Origin: a bacterium BMS3Bbin13
Lineage (GTDB): Bacteria > Pseudomonadota > Gammaproteobacteria > 21-64-14
Reading direction: 5' to 3'
Length of the DNA stretch: 58,726 nt
Assembly: GCA_002897735.1 (NCBI GenBank)
Contig: BDTW01000010.1
Span: 1-58,726 of the forward strand
Shown here: positions 16,061 to 55,365 of the stretch, piece after piece
Layout of the letters: each line of letters begins with the position of its first letter
How positions within the stretch are numbered: position 1 is the stretch's first letter
Notes under the pieces: generated by a model
Seen by the model: only the letters and a program-made list of their open reading frames with translations
Database searches by the model: none
Told to the model about the DNA's origin: nothing
Program-made: the position numbers and the translations under genes

Positions 16061-16127
16061 CGGTAAGCGACGACCGGCCACCCACCGCCCCGACCGGGCT
16101 CCGCAGCGCTGATATCCGTGCACAAGG

Positions 16128-16738
16128 GCGGGGCTCGCCCCCTCGGCGGCATCGCGGGGACCCGCCGCCATCACCACGGATCCGCGTCGCCGGCCGGGCA
16201 AGCCCGGCCCTACCGAACGTGCGGGGATGCGCGAATCCCGGTAGGGCGGGCCTCGGCCCGCCGACGGCATCGCGGGGACCCGCCGCGATCACCACGGATC
16301 CGTGTCGCCGGCCGGGCAAGCCCGGCCCTACCGAACGCGGGGATGCGCGAATTCCGGTAGGGCGGGCCTCGGCCCGCCGACAGCATCGCGGGGACCCGCC
16401 GCGATCACCACGGATCCGCGTCACCGGCCGGGCAAGCCCGGCCCTACCGAACGCGGGGATGCGCGAATCCCGGTAGGGCGGGCCTCGGCCCGCCGACGGC
16501 ATCGCGGGAACCCGCCGCCATCACCACGGATCCGCGTCACCGGCCGGGCAAGCCCGGCCCTACCGAACGTGCGGGGATGCACGAATCCCGGTAGGGCGGG
16601 CCTCGGCCCGCCGACGGCATCGCGGGGACCCGCCGCGATCACTACGGATCCGTGTCGCCGGCCGGGCAAGCCCGGCCCTACCGAACGTGCGGGGATGCAC
16701 GAATCCCGGTAGGGCGGGCCTCGGCCCGCCGGCGACGC
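16128..16738. repeat. Tandem array of ~117-bp double-hairpin (BIME-like) units
   Basis: Five near-identical copies plus a degenerate first copy fill the convergent space between lipA and the glycosyltransferase gene. The GTAGGGCGGGCCTCGGCCCG core recurs at 16241, 16357, 16473, 16591 and 16709, so the period is 116, 116, 118 and 118 bp; the 2-nt difference comes from CGAACGTGCGGGG versus CGAACGCGGGG. Each unit has two palindromes, CCGGGCAAGCCCGG and CGGGCCTCGGCCCG, facing each other as CCCTACC...GGTAGGG, then a non-palindromic spacer with the TCGCGGGGACCCGCCGCGATCACC motif. Single dispersed copies of the same hairpin pair occur at 20509, 30567, 40158, 49841 and 55267. The periods are not multiples of three, so this is not a repeated protein. 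Confidence 0.95.
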
Positions 16739-17860
16739 TCACTCTCCGTCCGGATCATCGGACCGGAGCAGGGCCTCGATCCGGGTCGCGGCCTGTTCGA
16801 TACCCGTGGGGAGCGGCGGCACCGGCGCCGGTGCCGCCCACAACGCGCGCAGTTCCGTCTGCAGATCGCCCGCCCGCAGTTGCCCGCCGGTGATCTCGCG
16901 CGCACGCCCGTGACGGCGCAACCACGCGATCAGGCCCGGCTCCTCGGGCCAGTCACCGCGACGCACGTACAACACCGGCACGCCGTTGCACGCCGCCTCG
17001 GTGAAGATGCCGTAGCCGGGCTTGGTGATCACCGCATCGCCGGCACACAGCACGTCGATGAACGCCTCGCCGAGGGTCGTCACCGGGATTACGTCGGGTC
17101 GCGGCACGGCGCTCTCGGGCGGGACCAGCCAGCGCAATCCGGGACGCGCCGGCCAGTCGGCCACCGGCAGCGGGGTGGGAATCCCGCCCGGGGCGACGAG
17201 GATCAGGCGTTGCGCCCCGTGCACATCGAGTCCGGCGCGCCGGCGCACGACCTCGCGCCGGTCACGCCCGAGGCGCGCGATCGGGCCGATCGCCACGCGG
17301 TTGGGCAGACCCGCCATCGACAGCGCCGGTTCCGGGGCGAGGAACACCCGCGCGCACCGGTAGGCGGCCTCGATCTGCGCGAGGATCGCCGCGGCACCAT
17401 CGGCCGCGCCGCAATACGCCCGGTAAATCTCGCCCCAGTGCAGCGAACACAGCGCGGCGGCGGGGACGCCGGTGCGCGCCGCCGCCTCGAGAATCCGATA
17501 GGGCACGTCCGCCACGACGGCATCCGGCGCCAACTCGGCGAGCCGGTCCGCCTCATGTGCAACGCCCGCCTCCCATCGGCCGTGGAAGGCCGCATAGGCG
17601 CGCGCACTCGCGGCGGCGCGCACGACCAGGCTGCCCTCCATTACCATGCCGACGTCGGCCGGCGCCTCCCAGTGCCGGAAGGGCCCGTCGAGGCGCGCGG
17701 CGAGCACCGATCGCGGCAGCGCCGAATACACCGTCAGCCGCAACCGGGGGATGCGCCGGCGTAGCGCGTTGAACACCGGCGCGCATTGTGCGAGGTGCCC
17801 GTGGCCGTGGTGGGACAGCGCCGCGAGCAGGTGTGGAGCACGCTCCGGATCGCGGTGCAT
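16739..17860 (-). CDS. MurG/UGT-like GT-B glycosyltransferase
   Basis: 373 residues from ATG 17860 (MHRDPERAPHLL); the frame is open further upstream but would overlap the preceding gene. The N-terminal half starts with a nucleotide-type fold, LLAALSHHGHGHLAQ, resembling the acceptor domain of MurG-like and UDP-glycosyltransferases. The C-terminal donor domain contains the signature VITKPGYGIFTEAACNGVPVLYV, matching the GT28 C-terminal motif. Substrate unknown. Third and last gene of a minus-strand cluster after the GCS2 ligase and the M14-like hydrolase (44-nt gap), suggesting glycosylation of, or with, their product. It ends within a few bases of the tandem array, whose hairpins probably end transcription. 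Confidence 0.75.
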   Translation of the reverse strand: MHRDPERAPHLLAALSHHGHGHLAQCAPVFNALRRRIPRLRLTVYSALPRSVLAARLDGPFRHWEAPADVGMVMEGSLVVRAAASARAYAAFHGRWEAGVAHEADRLAELAPDAVVADVPYRILEAAARTGVPAAALCSLHWGEIYRAYCGAADGAAAILAQIEAAYRCARVFLAPEPALSMAGLPNRVAIGPIARLGRDRREVVRRRAGLDVHGAQRLILVAPGGIPTPLPVADWPARPGLRWLVPPESAVPRPDVIPVTTLGEAFIDVLCAGDAVITKPGYGIFTEAACNGVPVLYVRRGDWPEEPGLIAWLRRHGRAREITGGQLRAGDLQTELRALWAAPAPVPPLPTGIEQAATRIEALLRSDDPDGE

Positions 17861-17904
17861 GCTACGGCGGCCGCCCGCAAGGACGGCCCGGCCCCGAGGA
17901 TCGC

Positions 17905-18954
17905 TCACCGCGTCGCGCCCACCGGCGGCAGCCGTTCCATCAGGTAGCCGAGGCAGTCCTGGCGGATGGCCCGTGGATCGCGGCTCAGCATCGACGGCAT
18001 CACCGGCACGGCGACCCGCAGCTCGCCGTCGACCTCGGCGAAGAAGCGCCCCCCCACGTCGCGCCCCCGATCGTCGTAGGCGACGATGCGCACGCGACTG
18101 CCGGGGCGGACCCGGCCCAGGCACGTCCCGGGAGGCAGTTCGCGGAAGTTGAGACGATCGAGATCCTCGACCAGCCGCAGGTCCGCATCGGCGTCGCCGA
18201 AGCCGAACGAGACCTCCTCCGGGACCTTCATCACCGCCACCGTATGAAACAGGTCGATCTCACCGGGCGCGGGCGCTCGGTCGGGCAGTTCCGAGAGATG
18301 CAGGCAGGCGTCCAGGTATTCCAGGGCGTGTTCGATCCCGTGGCTGCGGCCCGGTTGGCCGCACTCGAGGGTCACGGCGGGACACAAACCGGCGAAGGCC
18401 GCCGCCTGGACCCCGCGCGGCGTAGTGAAGTACACCACGGTGCGCCCGAACAGCGACGCCAGTCGCAGGAAACGCGAATCGCGCCGATTGATGCAGGCAT
18501 AGTGCGGATTGAGGCCGGTGTTGTTGTGCACGTCCACGCTGGCGAACACGTCGCGGACGCGCATCTCCGCGAGCACGCGGCGCATCAGCGCATGTTCCGG
18601 GGTACCGTCGTCGTCCGCCCCCGGCCAGACCCGATTGTAGTCCGGCTGACCGGGCAGGCGCCGCACGCCGGCGCGCGCGGCGGCCACGTTTCCGACGAAC
18701 AGCGACAACGCGCGCGGCAGCATGCGGGCGCCGCCGCCCGGGGCGTAGCGGCGCAGCAATCGCTGTACGGCATGCAGCCCGGTATCCTCGTTACCGTGCA
18801 GCAGCACCGAGACGAACAGGGGCCGCCGACGTCGCCCGGGCAGGTGGATCAGCGTGGGGCCGGGCAACACACGGTGCAACGCCGCGGGCTCGGCGCCTAC
18901 GAAACCGGGCGGCAGACGATCCAAAACACCGAGTTCGATCGCGCCGGTATCCAT
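17905..18954 (-). CDS. AstE/aspartoacylase-type zinc carboxypeptidase-like hydrolase (M14)
   Basis: 349 residues from ATG 18954; a GTG at 18963 (overlapping the stop of the preceding gene as GTGA) is an alternative start. Zinc ligands are visible: HxxE in LLHGNEDTG and the distal His in SVDVHNNTGLNP; the catalytic-type Glu is in VTLECGQPG. These are features of the succinylglutamate desuccinylase/aspartoacylase branch of M14, which cleaves amide bonds of N-acylated amino acids. The C-terminal third is beta-rich with a CLGRVRPGSRVRIVAYDD segment. Five nt (or an overlap) from the GCS2 ligase gene, so one makes and the other may cleave or edit a gamma-glutamyl-type amide (inference). Confidence 0.8.
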   Translation of the reverse strand: MDTGAIELGVLDRLPPGFVGAEPAALHRVLPGPTLIHLPGRRRRPLFVSVLLHGNEDTGLHAVQRLLRRYAPGGGARMLPRALSLFVGNVAAARAGVRRLPGQPDYNRVWPGADDDGTPEHALMRRVLAEMRVRDVFASVDVHNNTGLNPHYACINRRDSRFLRLASLFGRTVVYFTTPRGVQAAAFAGLCPAVTLECGQPGRSHGIEHALEYLDACLHLSELPDRAPAPGEIDLFHTVAVMKVPEEVSFGFGDADADLRLVEDLDRLNFRELPPGTCLGRVRPGSRVRIVAYDDRGRDVGGRFFAEVDGELRVAVPVMPSMLSRDPRAIRQDCLGYLMERLPPVGATR

Positions 18955-18959
18955 GGTGT

Positions 18960-20393
18960 TCACACGGTCCACTCGTGCACGGGCGCACCCGCCCCCTGTC
19001 GCTCCAGGTACGCGGCCGTGAGAGCGGCGGGGTCGCGGCCGTGGCGCTCCACCCAGGCGCGTTGCCAGGCGGTACCGTTGCGCGCGGTCCGCACCCGGGC
19101 CTCGATGATCCCCAGGTATTCGTCCGCGTCGGCGGCGTCCAGTTCCAACCGGCGCAGCCCCCGGCGCGCCGCCGGCAGCAGTTCGTCCAGGAGCAGCGCC
19201 TGCACCGGGCCGCGGCGTTCGCCGAACCAGCCCACGTTGGCGCGCAGCCCGAAGCGGGCGGCGGCGTAGAAATTGTCCCGGGCGCAGGCGAAGGCCAATT
19301 CGTGCTCGGGCGGCACAGGCCGCGCGCCCAACGACTCGACCAGACCGAAGAACAGCGCGGCGTTGGCGATGGCATCGGCCACCGTCGGGCCGCCCGGCAC
19401 CGCCCGGTGCTCGATGCGCAGGTGCACGCCGCCGCCGGACTCGATCCCGATCAGCGGCCGATTCCAACGCCAGATGGTCCCGTTGTGCAGGCGCAGGTGA
19501 GCGAGGGCCTCCGGCGGCCCGTCCGAGCACATGGGCAGCAGCACCGGGTAGTGGTCGCGGTTCTCCACGAACCATTCCAGCAGCGAATCGCGGGCATAGT
19601 CCGAACCGAAGGTGACGCGGCGCGTCGGCCCACCGGCGGCCCCGTCGTAGCCGCCGACCTCCGCCGACTGCTCGAAGAGCGGGATGCGCGTCTCGTCCCA
19701 GAGGTCTCGGCCGAACAGGTACGGCGAATTGGCGGCCGCCGCGACGATCGGCGCCGAGGCGATCAGCGCGGCGTTGTAGGCTCGCACCGCCCGTTCCCGT
19801 CCGACCTGCAGATGGATCTGAAAGGAGGTGGCGGCGGCCTCGAGCATCAGGTCGTGGTGCTCGACATGCAGATGTTCACGACCCTGGATGTCCAGCCGCA
19901 GGGGACGGCCGTCGCGCAACCGCAGCACCTGTTCGTTCAGGGCACGGTAGCGTTTCAGCGGGGACATGTTGGCGAGGCTCAATTCCGACTCGCGCAACGT
20001 CGGGAGGATCCCGGTCATCAGCGGGCGAACCCCCGGCTCCGCCGCCGCGCCTTCGCAGCGTCGCCAGATCTCCTCCAACTCGCGGTGCATGGCGGACAGG
20101 GCGTCCCCGCGCAGGACGCGCGCAGCACCGTTCAGTTCCACGTTGAAGCGGGCCAGTTCGGGGACCACGCGCTCGTCGCCGAGGCGTTCCAGAAACGCCT
20201 GGTTCACGGGGGCCGCGCGCAGGGACCCATCCACGAGCCATGCCTCCAACTCGTAGCCGCCGATCCCCCCCTGCCCGGACAGCCTCCCCTCCCGGAACCA
20301 GACCCCCAGCAGTTCCGTCTCCGCGTCCAGGCGCCGGCGAAACTCGGTGAAGTCCCGCTCGCGGAAATGCGTGTCTGCGATTTCCTGTCCCAT
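18960..20393 (-). CDS. GCS2-family carboxylate-amine ligase (glutamate-cysteine ligase-like)
   Basis: 477 residues. GCS2 proteins are ATP-dependent amidoligases of the glutamine-synthetase fold that join a carboxylate, usually glutamate, to an amine. Seen: the N-terminal GGYELEAWLVD strand with the metal-binding acidic residue, FNVELNGAARVL, the HLHVEHHDLMLEAAATSFQIHLQV core with paired metal/ATP ligands, and the ANSPYLFGRDLWDETRIPLFEQ loop. It is longer than YbdK (~370). Real substrate cannot be read: glutathione synthesis is possible, but no glutathione synthetase is near. First gene of a three-gene cluster; a hairpin repeat lies upstream at 20509-20584. Confidence 0.78.
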   Translation of the reverse strand: MGQEIADTHFRERDFTEFRRRLDAETELLGVWFREGRLSGQGGIGGYELEAWLVDGSLRAAPVNQAFLERLGDERVVPELARFNVELNGAARVLRGDALSAMHRELEEIWRRCEGAAAEPGVRPLMTGILPTLRESELSLANMSPLKRYRALNEQVLRLRDGRPLRLDIQGREHLHVEHHDLMLEAAATSFQIHLQVGRERAVRAYNAALIASAPIVAAAANSPYLFGRDLWDETRIPLFEQSAEVGGYDGAAGGPTRRVTFGSDYARDSLLEWFVENRDHYPVLLPMCSDGPPEALAHLRLHNGTIWRWNRPLIGIESGGGVHLRIEHRAVPGGPTVADAIANAALFFGLVESLGARPVPPEHELAFACARDNFYAAARFGLRANVGWFGERRGPVQALLLDELLPAARRGLRRLELDAADADEYLGIIEARVRTARNGTAWQRAWVERHGRDPAALTAAYLERQGAGAPVHEWTV

Positions 20394-20508
20394 CCCTCGG
20401 CAATCCTCCCCGGCTCGTCATCGGCGTCGCAGGGCCCCTCCCCATGGCGCCCCGTACGCCCTGGGCCGGCGGACCCATAGGAATCGCGGCGGCGCCCCGC
20501 AACGGCGT

Positions 20509-20584
20509 CGGCGGGCCAAGGCCCGCCCTACCGGAATTCGCGCATCCCCATCCCCCCGGTAGGGCCGGGCTCGCCCGGCCGACG
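20509..20584. repeat. Type-1 dispersed hairpin pair
   Basis: Two palindromes facing each other, CGGCGGGCCAAGGCCCGCC-CTACC (20509-20532) and GGTAGGGCCGGGCTCGCCCGG (20557-20580). Same design as one unit of the 16.1-16.7 kb array, located between murU and the GCS2 gene. Confidence 0.85.
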
Positions 20585-20627: not shown

Positions 20628-22348
<1,721 letters not shown>

Positions 22349-22389: not shown

Positions 22390-23493
22390 CTACTTCGGCC
22401 GACGGGGGATGCGACGGCGCACGCCCTTGCCGGGCGCGGATCGCCTCTTGGCGGCGATCTTGCCGAGCGCCGTCTTTTTCTTCGCGGCGGTTTTCTTCTT
22501 GGCCGCTTTCTTCGCGGCGACCTTCTTCTTCGCGGCGACCTTCTTCTTGACGACCTTTTTCTTCGCCGTCTTCTTCGGCATCGCTTTCTTCTTCGCCGTC
22601 TTCTTCACGACCGTCTTCTTCACAACCTTCTTCTTGGCGGCCGGTTTCTTCGCGACCGCCTTCTTTTTGGATGGCACCTTCTTCTTTTCCGTCTTCTTCG
22701 CCGCGGACTTCTTCTTGGCCGCAGCCCCCGCTGTCGGCGCACCACCGCCGGCCCGCTTCGCCGGGATACGCGACCCGACCCGCTTCGCCACGACCCGCTT
22801 TGCATCGCCGGAGGCCGGCTCGCCCCCCGGCACCGCCTCGCCGCGGCTCAACGGGTCCACGATCCGACGGATGGCCTGGAAGACGTCGGAGACCTCGCCT
22901 ACCCCCTGGACCGTACGCAGCCGCCCCTGACGCCGGTAGTACTCGATCACCGGCGTGGTCTGGGCCTCGTACACGCGCAGCCGGTTGGCGATGGTCTCCT
23001 CGTTGTCGTCGGCGCGCCGACGCAGGTTACCGCCGCAAAGATCGCAGCGGTCATCGAACTTGGGGGGGCTCGAATAGACGTTGTACACCGCGCCGCAGGA
23101 CTCGCAGGTGCGCCGCCCGGTCAAGCGCTGCATCAGCACATCGAAATCCACGTCGATCAACAGCGCCAGATCCAGTGGCTGCCCGAGGTCGTGGAGCATC
23201 CCATCGAGGGTTTCGGCCTGCGAGAGGTTGCGCGGGAAACCGTCCAGAATGAAGCCGCGTTGCGCGTCGGGCTCGGCGAGACGCTCACGGATCATCCCGA
23301 GCACGATCTCGTCGGAGACCAGTTGACCGGCGTCCATCGCGGCCTTCGCCATGCGCCCCAGCGGGGTGTCCGCGGCCACCGCCGCCCGCAACAGGTCGCC
23401 GGTGGAGATCTGCGGAGTATGATATTGATCGACTAGTTGTTTTCCCTGCGTCCCTTTGCCCGATCCAGGTGCTCCCAACAGTACGATTCTCAT
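22390..23493 (-). CDS. adk: Adenylate kinase with histone H1-like Lys/Ala-rich C-terminal tail
   Basis: Catalyses ATP + AMP = 2 ADP. Residues 1-217 are a normal long-type adenylate kinase: P-loop GAPGSGKGT (7-15), AMP-binding TGDLLR (31-36), LDGFPRN (83-89), and a LID domain with Cys130, Cys133, Cys150 and Cys153 arranged for zinc. After a linker (218-255) comes a strongly basic low-complexity tail, residues 256-345, of KKK, AAKK, VVKK and TAKK blocks, ending in an Arg-rich RRRIPRRPK. Typical Adk stops near 215, so the tail adds about 150 residues (367 total). There is no stop or frame change at the junction. The tail resembles histone H1-like or AlgP C termini and would bind nucleic acid or polyphosphate (inference). 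Confidence 0.93.
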   Translation of the reverse strand: MRIVLLGAPGSGKGTQGKQLVDQYHTPQISTGDLLRAAVAADTPLGRMAKAAMDAGQLVSDEIVLGMIRERLAEPDAQRGFILDGFPRNLSQAETLDGMLHDLGQPLDLALLIDVDFDVLMQRLTGRRTCESCGAVYNVYSSPPKFDDRCDLCGGNLRRRADDNEETIANRLRVYEAQTTPVIEYYRRQGRLRTVQGVGEVSDVFQAIRRIVDPLSRGEAVPGGEPASGDAKRVVAKRVGSRIPAKRAGGGAPTAGAAAKKKSAAKKTEKKKVPSKKKAVAKKPAAKKKVVKKTVVKKTAKKKAMPKKTAKKKVVKKKVAAKKKVAAKKAAKKKTAAKKKTALGKIAAKRRSAPGKGVRRRIPRRPK

Positions 23494-23695
23494 GGCAGCC
23501 TTTTCACTCCCCGTAGCTGGGTGGTTGTCGGTGGATTCGGCGCCGGGTATCTCCGGAACGCGGCCGGTAGAGGCAGGTAGGGCCGCCCGAGGGACCCTCC
23601 AGCCCCGCCCGGGACACTCCGCGGCGATCAATTCTCCTTGTCCGTACATAGGCGCCGTGCATCGACCGGCGCGCGCGCAATGCAACCGTACGATT

Positions 23696-23724
23696 AAGCT
23701 AACCGCACAGCCCCGACAAGTCAA
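23696..23724 (-). promoter_or_regulatory. Candidate adk promoter in the 23494-23836 divergent spacer
   Basis: On the minus strand TTGACT (23719-23724), a 17-nt spacer and TAGCTT (23696-23701) lie about 200 nt before the adk ATG. The whole 343-bp spacer separates adk from the plus-strand 117-residue gene and is less GC-rich than the neighbouring genes; no gene was seen in it. For the plus strand a TATGCT (around 23756) could be a -10. Calls are by eye. Confidence 0.4.
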
Positions 23725-30566: not shown

Positions 30567-30715
30567 GTCGGCGGGGCGAACCCCGCCCTACGGAATCTCC
30601 ACCGCGTCGCGATATTCCGGTAGGGTCGGGCTTGCCCGACCGGCGCTGTGGACCGCCCCCGAACCCGGCGGGGCTTTCCGGCGTTGTCGGCGGGGCGAGC
30701 CCCGCCCTACGGGGG
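30567..30715. repeat. Type-1 dispersed hairpins between slyD-like gene and thiC
   Basis: Facing hairpins CGGCGGGGCGAACCCCGCC-CTACGG (30569-30594) and CCGGTAGGGTCGGGCTTGCCCGACC (30618-30642), followed by a third, CGGCGGGGCGAGCCCCGCCC-TACGG (30688-30712). The region lies between convergent genes and could end transcription from both sides. No gene is seen from 30513 to 30775. Confidence 0.85.
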
Positions 30716-40157: not shown

Positions 40158-40342
40158 GTCGTCGGCCGGGCGAGCCCGGCCCTACCGGGTGGGTGTGATC
40201 ACCGATGCGGGTATGAGGCGGGGCTTCCCCGCCGGGGTGGCGATATTCTGTAGGGCGGGCCTCGGCCCGCCGACGGCGTTGGAAAATCCCACCAACCGCG
40301 ATACACCAACGTCGTCGGCCGGGCGAGCCCGGCCCCCCTCCC
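40158..40342. repeat. Type-1 dispersed hairpins (three arms)
   Basis: CGGCCGGGCGAGCCCGGCC-CTACC (40162-40186) faces TGTAGGGCGGGCCTCGGCCCGCCG (40251-40275); a third arm, CGGCCGGGCGAGCCCGGCC (40316-40334), follows. Related to the units of the 16.1-16.7 kb array. Confidence 0.88.
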
Positions 40343-41644: not shown

Positions 41645-42460
41645 TCAATACCGCTGCGTACGCGCCGGTCGCGGCGCGGCGGGCGCCCCCGGCGGCATCA
41701 GCCGCGTCCCGTAACGACGGAACTGGCGCTCCTCGTAGGTCTTGGCATACTTCAGAAACACGTAGAATGCGCCGCACACGGAGGTGATGAACCCCGCCCA
41801 ACCGTTGAGGAAGTTGCGCTTGAAGAGATAGGAGCGAAGGAAATAGACCGGCGGATAGAACACCAGGATCCAGGGACTGCGCCCGCGCCCCTTGGCGAGC
41901 TTGTCGGCGACCAGGCCGGTCGAATAATGGTTGAGCTTGTCCATCTTGGTGTGCAGATCGGTCTCGCCGAAATGGTAGAACGGGTGGCGCAAACGCCGCA
42001 CCACCCCCTCGACCTTCGGAGCGGCGTGCACCGGCATGTCGTCGATGCGCCCCTTGGTCTTGTCGAACAGCCTCAAAAAGGCGTTGAGCCGCACATGCGG
42101 GCTGGTCATGCGCCAGAAGAGCTGTTCCTGGCGCGGGATCTCATAGCCGTCGGCCTCGGGCCCCGCGGCCAGCAAGGCGCGGATCTCCTCCTGCGATCCC
42201 GGCGAGAGCGCCTCGTCGGCGTCCAGCAGCAAGACCCAGCGATGGCGCGTCTGCTCCAGCGCGAGCTGCTTCTGGCGGCCGTAACCCAGAAACTCGTGCC
42301 GGGAGATGCGGCAACCGTAGCGCCGGGCGATCTGCACGGTCGCGTCGGTGCTGAAGGAATCCAGCAGCACGATCTCCTCGGCCCAGCGAACGCTCTCCAG
42401 GCAGGCCGCCAGCGTGCGTTCGTTGTTGAACGTGGTCACGAATACCGATAGATTCATCAT
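41645..42460 (-). CDS. GT2-family glycosyltransferase, WaaE/KdtX-like
   Basis: 271 residues. GT-A fold: SVFVTTFNNERTLAACLES, IVLLDSFSTDATVQIARR, and the DXD-type LLLDADEALS. The WaaE/KdtX subgroup (LPS core beta-glucosyltransferases) shares the later FYHFGETDLHTKMDKLNHYS and FFR-like YLFKRNFLNGWAGF segments with a C-terminal membrane-associated part. Two adjacent ATG codons (42460, 42457) are possible starts. It lies on the minus strand between type-2 and type-3 repeats, opposite to neighbouring LPS genes, so it forms its own unit. Confidence 0.9.
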   Translation of the reverse strand: MMNLSVFVTTFNNERTLAACLESVRWAEEIVLLDSFSTDATVQIARRYGCRISRHEFLGYGRQKQLALEQTRHRWVLLLDADEALSPGSQEEIRALLAAGPEADGYEIPRQEQLFWRMTSPHVRLNAFLRLFDKTKGRIDDMPVHAAPKVEGVVRRLRHPFYHFGETDLHTKMDKLNHYSTGLVADKLAKGRGRSPWILVFYPPVYFLRSYLFKRNFLNGWAGFITSVCGAFYVFLKYAKTYEERQFRRYGTRLMPPGAPAAPRPARTQRY

Positions 42461-42496
42461 GATCGATCCTTGGGGGTCAAGGGGCGCAGGGTTCCA

Positions 42497-42575
42497 GGGG
42501 TCAAAGTACTTGAAATTTTACGGCGGATTTCGGGCAAGGAGTCAAGATGTTTGAGAATTTCAGGTACTCTGACCC
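42497..42575. repeat. Type-3 repeat, inverted pair
   Basis: GGGGTCAAAGTACTTGAAATT (42497-42517, shown up to the palindrome arm) pairs with AATTTCAGGTACTCTGACCC (42556-42575), separated by about 38 nt. This 79-bp inverted repeat marks the left edge of the less GC-rich LPS segment. Confidence 0.85.
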
Positions 42576-42838
42576 ATGGAACTCATGGGTCATCGGCCTG
42601 TTCTGGGCACTGCCCGAACGAAGAGCCGCACCCCCTACCGTACGCAACCGGAACCTCGCGGAATCCGTGATACCAGAGGCCTTGCTCGATAAAGCCAGTT
42701 GGCGGTCGACATGCACTGCAGGCCATTTTCGTCTATGTCTGAGGTGCTCCAGCACCCTTCCTTACGCCGCAGAAAACCTTCCGAACCAAGCTGCGGGCGG
42801 AGTATCGCCCCATCGGGCCATATAATCCACCACCTGCC
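42576..42838. other. Unassigned spacer before the first GT4 gene
   Basis: About 260 bp between the type-3 inverted pair and the GT4 start. A 92-codon frame begins inside the repeat on the plus strand but shows no recognisable domain and no codon bias like the neighbours, so I do not call it. The spacer may carry the promoter for GT4-asnB or the remnant of a mobile element. Confidence 0.4.
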
Positions 42839-43921
42839 ATGACCGACCGCCCAATCCGTAGCGTCCACATTATCGGCAGCCGTGCGTCCGGTGGCGCAGA
42901 ACGGTTCTACATTCGTATCGTGCGGTCCCTGCACGCGCTTGGCCATCCTGTTCTCGCAGTCTGTCCTCCAGGCTCGGCAATCGCGCAAAAGCTGGTTGAC
43001 GTTCCCATGCGCCCGCTATCTATGCGATCCATATGGGATCTCTACGCACGATGGAACATCGCACATGCCACCCGGAGCTTCGGAACCCAAATTGTTCAGA
43101 CCTACTTGGGTCGGGCCACGCGGCTTACCCATCTGAAAGGGGGTGGCCGGTCGGTTCACGTGGCCAGACTAGGCGGTTATTATAATCTTGATCACTATCG
43201 CCACGCACATGCCTGGGTCGCGAACACCGGGGGGATCTATCGATATCTGATAACCAACGGTTTCCCCGCCAAGCGAGTGTTCCATATCGGAAACTTCGTG
43301 GAACCGGCACCACCGCGCCCGGCCACGACACGGACACAGATCCGGGAAGCGGCGGGCATTCCACCGGATGCGTACGTGCTGGTAAGCGTGGGTCGTTTGC
43401 ATCCAAATAAGGCCTTCGATAACCTGCTCACTGCTTTCGCAGCCCTTCCGCGGCGCGTCGACTATCGTCCACTCCATCTGGTGATCGTCGGTGACGGGCC
43501 CCTCAGAGGAGAGATTCAAGATCAAGCCCGGTCCCTTCGCATCGCTGCGGACGTGCACTTTGTCGGTTGGCAATCAGACCCGAACCCATACTATCAAATG
43601 GCGGATATTTTCATTTGTCCGTCGCGGATCGAGCCATTGGGAAACGTGATACTCGAAGCCTGGAGCCACGGGCTGCCGGTCATTGCCACCCGCTCCGCCG
43701 GCGCGGAGGAGCTGATACACGATGGGGTCGACGGCCGGCTTGTCCCCATTGATGACCCCACCACCCTCGCCGCTGCAATCCGCAGATTTCTGGAAACCGA
43801 TACCAAGACCCTGGAAGCATTCGCCGAAGCCGGCCGCATGACGCTCGCAGAGAATCACGGTGCTGAATCAGTCTTGGAACGTTACATTGAGATGTACAGA
43901 CTCCTGTCGAAGGATAATTAA
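42839..43921 (+). CDS. GT4-family glycosyltransferase
   Basis: 360 residues. GT-B fold: N-terminal IIGSRASGGAERFYIRIVRSL (glycine loop for acceptor domain), C-terminal donor domain with SVGRLHPNKAFDNLL, LVIVGDGPLRGEI, FVGWQSDPNPYYQMADIFICPSRIEPLGNVILEAW (the E-x7-E motif region) and LPVIATRSAGAEELI. Probably adds an outer-core or O-antigen sugar; substrate unknown. Codon use is visibly less GC-rich than in the flanking genes. The stop codon is directly followed by the asnB ATG (no spacer), suggesting translational coupling. Confidence 0.9.
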   Translation: MTDRPIRSVHIIGSRASGGAERFYIRIVRSLHALGHPVLAVCPPGSAIAQKLVDVPMRPLSMRSIWDLYARWNIAHATRSFGTQIVQTYLGRATRLTHLKGGGRSVHVARLGGYYNLDHYRHAHAWVANTGGIYRYLITNGFPAKRVFHIGNFVEPAPPRPATTRTQIREAAGIPPDAYVLVSVGRLHPNKAFDNLLTAFAALPRRVDYRPLHLVIVGDGPLRGEIQDQARSLRIAADVHFVGWQSDPNPYYQMADIFICPSRIEPLGNVILEAWSHGLPVIATRSAGAEELIHDGVDGRLVPIDDPTTLAAAIRRFLETDTKTLEAFAEAGRMTLAENHGAESVLERYIEMYRLLSKDN

Positions 43922-45742
43922 ATGTGCGGTATCGCCGGCTGGTATCTCCCGAAATGCACCGAGGGCGTGAAGCCCAATCCCGACGACCTCCGCCGGATAT
44001 TGCAGCACCGCGGACCCGACGGGCACGGCAGCTTTGTCGACGGCCCCGTCGGCCTGGTCCATACCCGGTTGGCAATCATAGACCCTGTCGGCGGACAGCA
44101 ACCCTTGTACAGCGATGACGGTCAACTCGCTTTGGTCGCCAATGGTGAAATCTATAACCACGTAGAACTCCGCGGCACTCTGGCGGCCCGTGGGTACCGC
44201 TTTACCACCCACTCCGACTGTGAGCCCTTGTTATACGCCTACCGGGAATACGGCGATGACTTTCTTCAGCACGTCGAAGGAATGTTTGCATTCGCGCTGT
44301 ATGATCGATCCAGATCCCGGCTGCTTTTAGGCCGGGATCGCCTTGGCATAAAACCGCTGTTCCTGCTGCTGCTGCACGATGCCGTGTATTTCGCCTCGGA
44401 GATGAAAGCACTGTTTCCGGTTTTCGACGGACGGCCAAAGATCGACCCGATCGGACTCGCCCAATACCTCCAGACGGGTTTTACCTGCGGCACCAATACC
44501 GTAGTGCAAGGTATCACGCGCGTGTCTCCCGGGGAACTCCTGGTGATCACAGCGGAAGGGATCAACCGCTCGCGCTATTGGGATCTGCGGCGTAACATGA
44601 ACTCCCTCTCCAGTCTTCCCGCGACGGAGGAATATTTTACAGATCTGATCGATTTGGTCATGCGACAGCATATCCGAAGCGACGTACCGTACGGCCTTTT
44701 TCTTTCCGGCGGTGTCGATTCCTCGGTACTCCTCGCGCTGCTTAGCCGCTATACACAAGAGCCGATAAGGACATACTCCGTTGGGTTCGCTTCACATGGT
44801 GTGCCAAACGAACTTCCGGCGGCACGCGCCCTTTCCGAGCGCTTCGGCACTATTCATACCGAGATTCACCTCGACAAGCATGCGCTGCTACGGCGCCTGC
44901 CGTTCGCCGTATGGAGCGCGGATGAACTTATCTCCGACTACGCGAATCTCCCCACCTCTATGCTCGCGGAACGCGCGAGCGCCGACCTGAAGGTGGTATT
45001 TAGCGGCGAGGGTGGCGACGAGGTCTTTGCCGGATATGGCCGCTATCGAACGCCTGCGATACAGCGATGCCTGCGTGCGCTCGGCTCGCCCGGAACCGGG
45101 GGCTTTCGGACACGCGGTATTTTCGATCGCGTGCGGCACCTTCATATCTTCAAACAGGAGATCAATGAGTGTCTACACGATTGGAGAGCACCACTCGTCG
45201 CGGCATGGGGCTCCACACCCCGGAAGTGGACGACACTCCAACGCATGCAGTACGTGGACCTCGTTACTTGGCTACCCGACGACTTGCTGGCAAAAGTGGA
45301 TCACATGCTAATGTCCTGGGGCATGGAAGGACGAGTACCGTTCCTCGATCATAGAGTGGTGGAATTCGGTTTGATGTTGGAAGACAACCTGAAGGTCCAT
45401 CGGCGAAGTGGAAAGGTGTTCCTGAAACGATGGGGAACACGTATACTCCCGGGACATGATATTTGGAGCCGAAAGCGTGGATTTACGGTACCTATACGCG
45501 AATGGTTGCGGGGCGACACACTCGACCGCGTCGAACGGACACTGCTGGCAAGTCCCACCGTGTGCGACTGGTGCCATCCCGCCGGGATCACGCGGCTGCT
45601 TGCAGCACAACGGGAACAGCCGCGCTTTTCCTTTCCCATATGGCTGTTGCTTCATTTGGCAATCTGGGGACACTTGTTCCTGGAACAGAAAGGTCCGGCG
45701 GCACCGGAACCGGATCAGGATCCGTTCATTCCGGGCGCATAG
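43922..45742 (+). CDS. asnB: Asparagine synthase (glutamine-hydrolysing), LPS-cluster type
   Basis: 606 residues. N-terminal Ntn glutaminase: catalytic Cys2 after Met (MCGIAGW), LQHRGPDGHGSF, NGEIYNH; C-terminal synthetase with PPi-loop FLSGGVDSSVLLALLS and GEGGDEVFAGYGRYR. In surface-polysaccharide clusters such paralogues usually amidate uronic acids of the O antigen rather than make free asparagine (established for WbpS-like proteins; inference here). Adjacent to GT4 with no gap. Located in the less GC-rich segment. Confidence 0.9.
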   Translation: MCGIAGWYLPKCTEGVKPNPDDLRRILQHRGPDGHGSFVDGPVGLVHTRLAIIDPVGGQQPLYSDDGQLALVANGEIYNHVELRGTLAARGYRFTTHSDCEPLLYAYREYGDDFLQHVEGMFAFALYDRSRSRLLLGRDRLGIKPLFLLLLHDAVYFASEMKALFPVFDGRPKIDPIGLAQYLQTGFTCGTNTVVQGITRVSPGELLVITAEGINRSRYWDLRRNMNSLSSLPATEEYFTDLIDLVMRQHIRSDVPYGLFLSGGVDSSVLLALLSRYTQEPIRTYSVGFASHGVPNELPAARALSERFGTIHTEIHLDKHALLRRLPFAVWSADELISDYANLPTSMLAERASADLKVVFSGEGGDEVFAGYGRYRTPAIQRCLRALGSPGTGGFRTRGIFDRVRHLHIFKQEINECLHDWRAPLVAAWGSTPRKWTTLQRMQYVDLVTWLPDDLLAKVDHMLMSWGMEGRVPFLDHRVVEFGLMLEDNLKVHRRSGKVFLKRWGTRILPGHDIWSRKRGFTVPIREWLRGDTLDRVERTLLASPTVCDWCHPAGITRLLAAQREQPRFSFPIWLLLHLAIWGHLFLEQKGPAAPEPDQDPFIPGA

Positions 45743-46183
45743 GCCCAGCGGGTCAGATGCAGCCATGGAGCGGCGCCGAAACCGGCTCGACGCGGAGACC
45801 ACGCCATCCGATCGCTACGGCGTTTGGCCACTACCTCAGCGCGCTGTTTTCTCGCGCAGTCGCGAAGCCATAGTCGTTCGTACGTGCCGTCTTGAGCAAC
45901 CTTGATTCCGGAGAGTTCCTTATTCTTGTAACGTAACGCGCCATATCGCCGCGCCGTCTCGGTACCGGAAACCACAACTGTCGCCCGGAAAGCCTCGATA
46001 TATACGGTGTCCCCGAACCGGGATCCATCCGCCCAACGAGTTCGCCTGGAACCGGGGGGTGCCGGTGCAACTTGATGCGACACACTATGGCCTGACCCGG
46101 CATGATCGGACAGCCGGGACAGAGAGAGTGACAAGCGGCTCCGAGAACATACGCATTGCACCGGCGTCCCGATGGAGGAACGC
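45743..46183. other. 441-bp gap after asnB without supported gene
   Basis: The minus strand holds a 178-codon frame (45715-46251) overlapping both neighbouring genes, with no domain and poor codon bias; plus-strand frames are short. A promoter or leader for the methyltransferase may lie here. No palindromic repeat of the three families is present, unlike most other long gaps in this window. Confidence 0.5.
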
Positions 46184-46981
46184 ATGGGAATAAATTGCAG
46201 TAACTTGGTATTACTAGCCGAGTATGCACGTCGGCATCCGCTCGGCTCCATGCTGACCTACGGGCGGCTTTTCAACACCCTTTCGCCGTCAGACCGACGC
46301 AGGATCGTCAACAGCCGGGAAATTTCCGGCTCCGTTCTCGAGGAACACAACACCGAAAATCTGTTTACACACCTCGGGGCCAAACGGGTTTTGTCACTCG
46401 ACATCTCAAACGCCGATGGAGCCGATATGCTGGTCGATCTGATGGATGACTTCGCGTCCGGCGGGATCATGCAGCAGTATCTCGGGAATTTCGATACGGT
46501 GCTCGATTACGGAACCAGCGAACACGTATTCAATTTCCTTCAAGCGCTTGTCAACGCATACAACCTCTTGCGTCCAAACGGGGTATATATCTTCGACCTA
46601 CCCGTTTCCGGTTGGGTAAGCCACGCCGTGTATCAGTTCTCTCCAAGCTATTTCATGGCACTTGGAAACTCCCCCTGGTTCGAACTTGAGTGGCTTTTCT
46701 TCCACTATAAGCGTGGAGACAGCATATTCGATATACGCCACTACCACAATATCAGCTATTCCCGCATCAACGGGCGAAAGAGAGTGTCGGCCTGGGGCGT
46801 AATCCGTAAGACCGTGCCGGCGGGGAGAAGCACACCTCTGGCGCTGAGCGAGCTACGCACCATACAGGTCGACCCTCGACAATCCAACAGGACACAAGGA
46901 CTTCGCCTGATCTCAAAGTTGGCGGGCGTCCGAAAGTATTCTGCCCGTAACGTCCATCGGATGTTTGATCGCCGTGACTGA
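46184..46981 (+). CDS. SAM-methyltransferase-like protein in the LPS cluster
   Basis: 265 residues from ATG 46184 (an ATG at 46172 would add four). The fold pattern is that of a class I methyltransferase: KRVLSLDISNADGADMLVDL, then NFDTVLDYGTSEHVFNFLQALVNAYNLLRPNGVYIF as acidic loop and post-motifs. The classic glycine-rich motif I is degenerate (LGAKRVLSLDIS), so SAM binding is not certain. C-terminal basic region. Location between asnB and the O-antigen ligase points to modification of a surface sugar or lipid precursor (inference). Confidence 0.65.
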   Translation: MGINCSNLVLLAEYARRHPLGSMLTYGRLFNTLSPSDRRRIVNSREISGSVLEEHNTENLFTHLGAKRVLSLDISNADGADMLVDLMDDFASGGIMQQYLGNFDTVLDYGTSEHVFNFLQALVNAYNLLRPNGVYIFDLPVSGWVSHAVYQFSPSYFMALGNSPWFELEWLFFHYKRGDSIFDIRHYHNISYSRINGRKRVSAWGVIRKTVPAGRSTPLALSELRTIQVDPRQSNRTQGLRLISKLAGVRKYSARNVHRMFDRRD

Positions 46982-47191
46982 GCCGGCGGAGGTTCAGTAC
47001 CCGCTTCGGCGCATGCCGCTCCGGCTCTGGCAGGGCGCATTCCAATCACCGCGGATACTTCGTGGTTGGTCGCGTTGACACACCGGCTCCGCCCTCTGGA
47101 TGGGGGCGGTACTCCGGTTTACACCGGCTTTGTTTATCGGCGTGGTAGACTGCGGTCGGTAGTTTTTGGCGATTGTGAGGAACGTCCTCGG

Positions 47192-48469
47192 ATGACCGAA
47201 TCGACCGATGTCCGGCTGCAAGCGGCCGCCCGCTACCTGACGGTAATGATCCCCGTGCTGTTGGTATTAGGCCGTGCAGCAGCCGATGCGGGTTTATCGC
47301 TTGTTTCCATCCTATTCGTAATCCACTGTGTCCGCGCCGGAGATTGGGGGTGGATCAAGCGACCATGGTTTTGCGTAGCCTTTGCCATTTGGGTATGGCT
47401 GTTGGTCACCAGCAACTTCGCACTCGATGTGGCATCGGCCTACGGCCAAGCGGCCACCTGGATGCGTTTTTTGCTATTTGCAGCGGCGGCCGAACACTGG
47501 TTACTCGACGAACGCTGGTTACGGCGCCTGCTGGCAGTCACCTGTGTCACCCTCGCATTGGTGGCTGCTGACACCGTTCTTCAGTATTTTCACGGTGTCG
47601 ACCTGCTCGGACACCCGTGGTTCAGCCCGATCCGGCTTACGGGTCCGTTTACCCATCCGAAGGTAGGCGTGTACATGATGCGGCTTCTGTTTCCCGCGGC
47701 TCTCGGGCTGTGGTCCTGGGGATCGCTGGCATCAGGTCGGCGGTGGCTGCCGGTTTTACTCGGAGCCCTGGTGACGCTCGCGGTTTTTCTCAGCGGCGAA
47801 CGAATGGCCTTTATACTGACGTTGTTCGGGATGTTTCTCACCGCGATGGTATGGGTCGGACTGCGACGCGCAGCGTTGCTTACATTGGCGGGCGTCGCGG
47901 TTCTAACGGTCGTATTTTTTGTGGGGCGTAGCCAAGTCACCGTGCAACGTCAGTTTATCGCTACGGCGCAGGGTATTGCCGGCTTTTGGAATTCCGGCTA
48001 CGGACACCTGTGGCGTAGCGGCGTGAAAGTGGGCAGCGCACGACCGATCACAGGGGTGGGAATGCGCAATTTTCGCATCGCCTGCAGCCGACCCGGCATT
48101 GGCATGCCGGCGTCATTCGTAAGCCGCTGTAATCTCCACCCCCACAATATCTACATCGAGTGGTTTGCGGAGAGCGGCATTCCCGGGCTGCTTGGTTTTC
48201 TCCTGCTGGTAGGCACATGGTTTCGCCGTGTATGGCTTATCGGCAGACAGGCAAGGTGGCCCGGGTGGCTGCTGGGTCCCGCGTTGGGTGCATTTGTCTA
48301 CCTTTGGCCGTTTGCCACGACCCACGGATTCTTCAGCAACTGGAACGCCGTTACCTTCTGGCTCGTCCTGGGCTGGATGCTTGCTGCAGCGCGAATGGCC
48401 GAAGAGGGACGCCCGCTGTTTGTACAAAAGCGGGAGGCACCTCGGACGCCGGCGACGCCGCGGCCATAA
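47192..48469 (+). CDS. O-antigen ligase / polymerase family membrane protein
   Basis: 425 residues from ATG 47192 (MTESTDVRLQAAARYL). About 11-12 hydrophobic helices with a large periplasmic loop containing RPITGVGMRNFRIACS and HPHNIYIEWFAESGIPGL; the H-N-x-Y/F-x2 motif and GVG-M-NF are features of the Wzy_C/WaaL family. WaaL (ligation to lipid A core) is more likely than Wzy given that no other flippase/polymerase is near, but both are possible. It follows the methyltransferase after 210 bp. Less GC-rich segment. Confidence 0.85.
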   Translation: MTESTDVRLQAAARYLTVMIPVLLVLGRAAADAGLSLVSILFVIHCVRAGDWGWIKRPWFCVAFAIWVWLLVTSNFALDVASAYGQAATWMRFLLFAAAAEHWLLDERWLRRLLAVTCVTLALVAADTVLQYFHGVDLLGHPWFSPIRLTGPFTHPKVGVYMMRLLFPAALGLWSWGSLASGRRWLPVLLGALVTLAVFLSGERMAFILTLFGMFLTAMVWVGLRRAALLTLAGVAVLTVVFFVGRSQVTVQRQFIATAQGIAGFWNSGYGHLWRSGVKVGSARPITGVGMRNFRIACSRPGIGMPASFVSRCNLHPHNIYIEWFAESGIPGLLGFLLLVGTWFRRVWLIGRQARWPGWLLGPALGAFVYLWPFATTHGFFSNWNAVTFWLVLGWMLAAARMAEEGRPLFVQKREAPRTPATPRP

Positions 48470-49840: not shown

Positions 49841-49925
49841 GTCGGCCGGGCGAGCCCGGCTCTACGGGTGCCGTCGGCAGAGGCGGCGCACTCCCTTGTA
49901 GGGCGGGCCTCGGCCCGCCGACGAC
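49841..49925. repeat. Type-1 dispersed hairpin pair
   Basis: CGGCCGGGCGAGCCCGGCTCTACGG (49841-, left arm) faces TGTAGGGCGGGCCTCGGCCCGCCG (49896-49919). Between GT4 and the ELM1-like gene, next to a type-3 copy. Confidence 0.85.
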
Positions 49926-55266: not shown

Positions 55267-55365
55267 TCTGTAGAGCGGGGCTCGCCCCGCCGACAACGCC
55301 AGTGACCCGATGCCGCAGGTGCACGATTCCGCGTCGCCGGCCGGGCAAGCCCGGCCCTACCGGAA
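55267..55365. repeat. Type-1 dispersed hairpin pair, inverted order
   Basis: TGTAGAGCGGGGCTCGCCCCGCCG (55270-55293) and CGGCCGGGCAAGCCCGGCCCTACC (55336-55359): the two hairpins point outwards, opposite to the usual facing order. Lies upstream of glnE; the ATG at 55296 falls between them. Confidence 0.85.

Follow-up and report, generated by a model that had tools for sequence, protein, structure and literature searches.

Two genes in a 58,726-nucleotide (nt) stretch of DNA from the bacterium BMS3Bbin13 (assembly GCA_002897735.1, contig BDTW01000010.1; the whole stretch is referred to here as the window) encode a predicted carboxylate-amine ligase and a predicted zinc amidohydrolase, which are inherited together with very few exceptions and are naturally fused in two species. 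The first gene (positions 18960–20393, minus strand) encodes a protein of 477 residues, from an ATG start to a TGA stop at 18962–18960, that matches the Pfam family GCS2. The second (17905–18963, minus strand) encodes an aspartoacylase/succinylglutamate desuccinylase-type protein of 349–352 residues with a match to AstE_AspA_cat, and starts either at a GTG that shares the four nucleotides GTGA with the ligase stop, or at an ATG at 18954, with a spacing of 5 nt. Since they are inherited together and can be fused, both enzymes probably make and break the same small molecule. That they share one metabolite or pathway is very probable, and we assign a probability of about 0.5 to the complete reading, in which the two work in opposite directions on a single amide, probably an amino-acid conjugate of the gamma-glutamyl type.

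The distribution of both genes was followed in 93 relatives, almost every one from a family of its own, and in 397 genomes sampled evenly across the phylum, with two genomes common to both sets. Among the relatives, 35 hold the ligase and 34 of these also hold the hydrolase (33 close homologues and a divergent one, in G011), while no close hydrolase was found in the 58 ligase-free relatives (Fisher's test 1e-24, for genomes that are not fully independent). A similar picture emerges from the phylum sample, where both genes are present in 20 genomes and absent from 375, while G393 has the ligase alone and G113 the hydrolase alone. The hydrolase is readily told apart in these searches, as its strong matches all have E < 1e-50, whereas other aspartoacylase-family proteins form a clearly distinct background at E > 1e-16. 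The reading frames are kept at 46–78% identity across dozens of genomes, which excludes a chance open reading frame.

The two genes are adjacent in 31 of the 34 relatives and in all 20 genomes of the phylum sample (49/52 overall). Contigs that hold the pair are labelled as Gammaproteobacteria, Chromatiaceae, and Acidiferrobacterales. The non-adjacent exceptions are G020, which keeps both genes far apart, and G065 and G006, the latter a fragmentary genome, where they are on separate contigs. In 20 loci the gap between them ranges from -29 to +81 nt, with a single one of 273 nt, the start codons having been chosen by script. The ligase of G010 and G480, which are two species from the same genus, continues in frame into the hydrolase through a linker of approximately 6 residues, and in other genera of the same family the ligase frame has its ordinary length. 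Furthermore, the pairwise distance matrices of both families correlate across 50 loci (r 0.92, above all 1000 permutations). Apart from one regional neighborhood, the surroundings of the pair hold no further conserved gene, and the core of the module consists of two translationally coupled genes. An earlier interpretation of the window, made from its letters without database searches (the sequence-only reading), had grouped the ligase and the zinc amidase with an adjacent glycosyltransferase gene, and had set rare co-occurrence of the three as a possible refutation. The association of the first two is amply confirmed by their near-perfect co-occurrence (34/35), their translational coupling, and their natural fusion, but the triplet rarely occurs together.

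By sequence, the first protein belongs to the GCS2 superfamily of ligases, of which it is a divergent member. Its match to Pfam GCS2 (32.5 bits against a cut-off of 21, E 7.7e-8) is accompanied by scores of 21.2 and 24.7 bits for the NCBIfam models TIGR02050 and NF010043, far below their cut-offs of 176.4 and 409, respectively. The GhExE signature, a magnesium/ATP site common to GCS2 and PafA (Iyer et al., PMC2588565), is present as G46-Y-E48-L-E50. G46, E48, and E50, together with E86, Q192, H194, R326, E328, R330, and D340, are invariant in the alignment of 58 homologues. No informative match for the ligase came from sequence searches of the PDB, whether a single protein or the ligase profile served as query. 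AlphaFold models were built from four sequences per protein, and only the identities of their Foldseek hits, not their geometry, were used. When the low-confidence ligase model (mean predicted local distance difference test, pLDDT, of 45) was compared with known structures for the glutamine-synthetase-like fold typical of the superfamily, YbdK ranked at the top (1r8g and 1tt4, E 1.7e-4 to 8.5e-4, template modelling score 0.24), followed by PafA, GshA, and Dop. YbdK—the E. coli carboxylate-amine ligase—and the remaining members of the GCS2 family, such as EgtA and the plant GshA, share the superfamily and the GhExE motif with this ligase. It differs from them in being about 100 residues longer, in having no significant pairwise sequence match to them, and in its almost obligatory pairing with a hydrolase across Pseudomonadota.

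The second protein forms a subfamily of its own among the AstE/AspA-type zinc amidohydrolases. Its family is indicated by the AstE_AspA_cat match (37 bits against a cut-off of 25, E 3.3e-9) and by a PDB profile search that retrieved AstE (1yw4/1yw6) and aspartoacylase chains. H56, E59, and H146, presumably the zinc ligands by comparison with aspartoacylase and carboxypeptidase structures, are invariant in 50 homologues, and so are R101, N110, and R111, which we take to be substrate residues, and E200, which we take to be the base. The catalytic residues, which the sequence-only reading regarded as intact, are conserved without exception in both families. Foldseek with the weak hydrolase model (mean pLDDT 58) retrieved AstE, DoeB, the aspartoacylase AspA, and the cyanophycin dipeptide hydrolase CphZ, with the deglutamylase CCP5 among the neighbors. 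The hydrolase has the catalytic domain and the zinc, arginine, and glutamate residues in common with AstE, AspA, DoeB, and CphZ, but lies outside any arginine, ectoine, or cyanophycin gene cluster. An assignment as the AstE of the arginine succinyltransferase pathway was rejected, as no astA, astB, astD, or equivalent was found among the scanned flanking genes of the window, and at other loci, too, the pair has no third gene conserved at its side.

GCS2 enzymes convert a carboxylate into an acyl-phosphate that is attacked by an amine, while in the AstE/AspA family a zinc-bound water attacks the amide, and the alpha-carboxylate is recognized on the amine side. Following this chemistry, the ligase would use ATP and magnesium to turn a carboxylate into an acyl-phosphate and would then join it to an amine; glutamate, through its gamma-carboxylate, is the most likely donor. 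The hydrolase would recognize the amino-acid half by its free alpha-carboxylate, through the conserved Asn-Arg pair, and would cut the bond between the acyl group and the NH of the amino acid. Acting oppositely on one amide, both enzymes may allow the cell to set the level of a gamma-glutamyl-type (or similar) amino-acid conjugate. Homology, intact catalytic residues, strict co-inheritance, adjacency, and fusion are what the sequences show; that the enzymes have a metabolite in common, which way each reaction runs, and what the acyl and amine halves are, we infer.

Several points weigh against two opposed activities. Fusion and co-inheritance are also compatible with two successive steps: the hydrolase would release an amino acid by cutting an N-acyl precursor, or would strip off a protecting acyl group, and the ligase would then couple the amino acid to glutamate or a different acid, unless the two steps run in the reverse order. 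Such a sequence is possible, if rather unlikely: co-occurrence, adjacency, and fusion fit it likewise, and most known enzymes with the AstE/AspA fold, including the AstE and DoeB found by Foldseek, are deacylases of multi-step pathways, but no N-acyltransferase, aminotransferase, or dehydrogenase is conserved by the pair, unlike in the ast and doe operons. The correlation between the distance matrices still contains the shared ancestry of hosts and species, and models of such low mean pLDDT (45 and 58) are too poor to read the geometry of the pockets. In addition, ligase homologues occur in records of a plasmid collection from Streptomyces, Nonomuraea, Tsukamurella, and Natrinema, where a search with the hydrolase gave no match, and no aspartoacylase-type gene is beside the ligase homologue in the three records with gene tables. 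The lack of an adjacent hydrolase in actinobacteria and in a haloarchaeon suggests that there the product of the ligase is useful without it. These homologues without an adjacent hydrolase (L101, L103, and L104) are annotated as "glutamate-cysteine ligase family protein" in the actinobacteria and as "hypothetical protein" in the haloarchaeon.

The make-and-break pair could also act on a larger substrate, attaching glutamyl or comparable residues to a protein or peptide and removing them again, in the manner of RimK-type ligases or of PafA and Dop. PafA and Dop—the Pup ligase and the depupylase—belong to the superfamily of the ligase, appear among its fold matches, and share the writer/eraser logic; CCP5 is a fold neighbor of the hydrolase, and in many relatives a RimK-like match lies beside another aspartoacylase-family gene. 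However, no gene for a small tag or carrier protein is conserved by the pair, nor was any Pup-like gene seen, and Dop has itself the ligase fold, in contrast to the hydrolase studied here. To our knowledge, moreover, the GCS2-type enzymes characterized to date work on small molecules, and the modification of a protein or peptide is considered improbable. As a separate observation, the RimK-like ATP-grasp matches and the different aspartoacylase-family gene that they adjoin (for example at G062:C1:464082-465487 and G001:C53:2704-4014) represent a second ligase-plus-aspartoacylase pairing.

The relation of the pair to glutathione deserves separate consideration. The genome of BMS3Bbin13 encodes glutathione synthesis, with gshB at C40:7359-8285 and a classical gshA (PF04262) at C8:57149-58249. 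Searches for two gshA families detected a dedicated gshA in 33 of the 35 ligase genomes, the other two being 62 and 81% complete, and gshB is present in almost every relative, whether or not the ligase is there. The candidate role of the ligase as the GshA of glutathione synthesis was therefore discarded, and with dedicated gshA and gshB genes elsewhere in the genome, the pair is not the glutathione pathway. This agrees with the sequence-only reading, which had held that classical glutathione synthesis does not explain the genes. It had noted that no glutathione synthetase is adjacent, which is correct for the genes themselves, although gshB exists elsewhere. It had also named an ordinary glutamate-cysteine ligase with a distant gshB as a refutation: the distant gshB was found, but so was a dedicated gshA, and the ligase is not an ordinary one serving glutathione.

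A related proposal would place the ligase in thiol metabolism, either as a second gamma-glutamylcysteine synthetase or as the missing glutathione amide enzyme of purple sulfur bacteria. Its GCS2 homology, the glutathione synthesis encoded in the genome, and the labels of the contigs with the pair, which include Chromatiaceae, are consistent with such a role, as glutathione amide has been inferred in all Chromatiaceae and most Ectothiorhodospiraceae (PMC8877833). Nevertheless, an aspartoacylase-type enzyme requires a free alpha-carboxylate, and glutathione amide has none at its amidated end; the dedicated gshA of most ligase genomes and the presence of gshB regardless of the ligase likewise argue against it. 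Ligase homologues are also found in actinobacteria and a haloarchaeon, and we know of no glutathione in these groups. Taken with these objections, a thiol function appears very improbable.

Downstream of the pair, the co-directional gene at 16739–17908 (minus strand) encodes a protein of 373–389 residues that starts at a GTG overlapping the hydrolase stop (GTGA), or at an ATG at 17860, with a spacing of 44 nt. The three minus-strand frames are all open at the positions proposed by the sequence-only reading, with the GTGA overlaps or 5–44 nt spacings that it described. This third protein gave no significant profile match of its own, and its prediction as a GT-B-type, MJ1255-like glycosyltransferase comes from its homologues alone (Glyco_trans_1_3 4.1e-6 and MJ1255 6e-9 for one in another genome). 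It occurs in 16 of the 93 relatives, comprising 11 of the 35 ligase genomes, only four of which have it beside the pair, and five of the 58 without ligase. Directly after the hydrolase it is seen only in the genus of BMS3Bbin13 itself and in two or three further genomes. Adjacency to the pair was recorded for G000, G001, G056, and G088, as well as for one contig of a metagenome-assembled genome (L031), whereas in G053 it follows murU and in G081 it is on the lipA side, with the ligase elsewhere in both genomes (lipA and its side were named by gene order and by the lipA of the window). Being missing or unlinked in most ligase genomes and present in some ligase-free ones, the glycosyltransferase was rejected as a member of the module, and the glycosylation step once proposed for the pathway is not supported.

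On the other side of the pair, upstream of the ligase, are murU (20628–21302, minus strand; N-acetylmuramate-1-phosphate uridylyltransferase, NF045761 E 9e-91, over the cut-off) and amgK (21299–22348, minus strand), predicted to encode an anomeric kinase of N-acetylmuramic acid (MurNAc) and N-acetylglucosamine with an APH fold (NF045759 E 4e-84, its best match, yet under the curated cut-off). A gap of about 235 nt, holding one copy of an interspersed palindromic repeat, separates murU from the ligase. A regulatory scan detected no Rfam family and no convincing promoter or terminator, and the folding of this gap is not unusual. The pair could accordingly be imagined to modify MurNAc-linked or free muropeptides in cell-wall recycling, together with AmgK, MurU, and the glycosyltransferase, as 13 of the first 22 loci have murU directly upstream of the ligase and the glycosyltransferase directly follows murU in G053. 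However, neither murU nor amgK is found beside the pair at distant loci, murU is just as frequent where the ligase is missing (32 ligase-free relatives carry it), and the shared flanks resemble a conserved housekeeping neighborhood. The presence of murU in ligase-free genomes and its absence beside distant pairs lead us to reject a cell-wall link through murU, and a role in recycling is hardly credible; murU and amgK are part of the locus, outside the module.

Other features of the window include a tandem array of 5.2 copies of a 118-bp unit (16125–16731) just downstream of the glycosyltransferase gene. Both palindromic halves of this unit are found again throughout the window, as an interspersed element resembling repetitive extragenic palindromes, with partial copies at 20506–20580 (minus strand; the one between murU and the ligase), 30616–30641 (minus strand), 40164–40275, 49897–49923, and 55339–55364. 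At 22390–23724 (minus strand), an adenylate kinase frame carries a lysine/alanine-rich C-terminal tail of about 140 residues that is histone-H1-like (with matches to HC2 and the Burkholderia H1-like family). The region around 42000–48000 has a G+C content of 57–60%, compared with approximately 65–72% around it, and is possibly acquired DNA.

A parallel in layout is the E. coli glutathionylspermidine synthetase/amidase GspSA, a single protein that combines an ATP-dependent ligase with an amidase for the amide which the ligase forms (PMC6272389). The ligase and the hydrolase described here are likewise fused in two species and probably have an amide in common. However, their folds are unrelated to those of GspSA, and the order is also different, since GspSA has a CHAP amidase followed by the synthetase, and here the ligase precedes the zinc hydrolase. 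Families of GCS2-like ligases with neighboring peptidases were already described by Iyer, Burroughs and Aravind in 2008 (PMC2588565), including, as here, a ligase of GCS2 size beside a peptidase gene in Proteobacteria. Ligase-plus-peptidase neighborhoods are known, and it is the pairing with fusion and co-inheritance that was not found in the literature; no description of this ligase-hydrolase pair was found, although an earlier computational mention, for example in the amidoligase survey of Iyer et al. (2009), is possible. Our tentative suggestion is that the pair might make and break an undescribed low-molecular-weight conjugate (gamma-glutamyl or a related isopeptide) as a zinc-hydrolase counterpart of GspSA in at least two classes of the phylum.

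Ligases annotated as glutamate-cysteine ligases are routinely taken for enzymes of glutathione synthesis, and the widespread subfamily described here is not one of them. Its near-constant partner is an amidase whose mechanism is defined, joined to it as a single protein in one genus, and two vague annotations thereby become one unit open to experiment.

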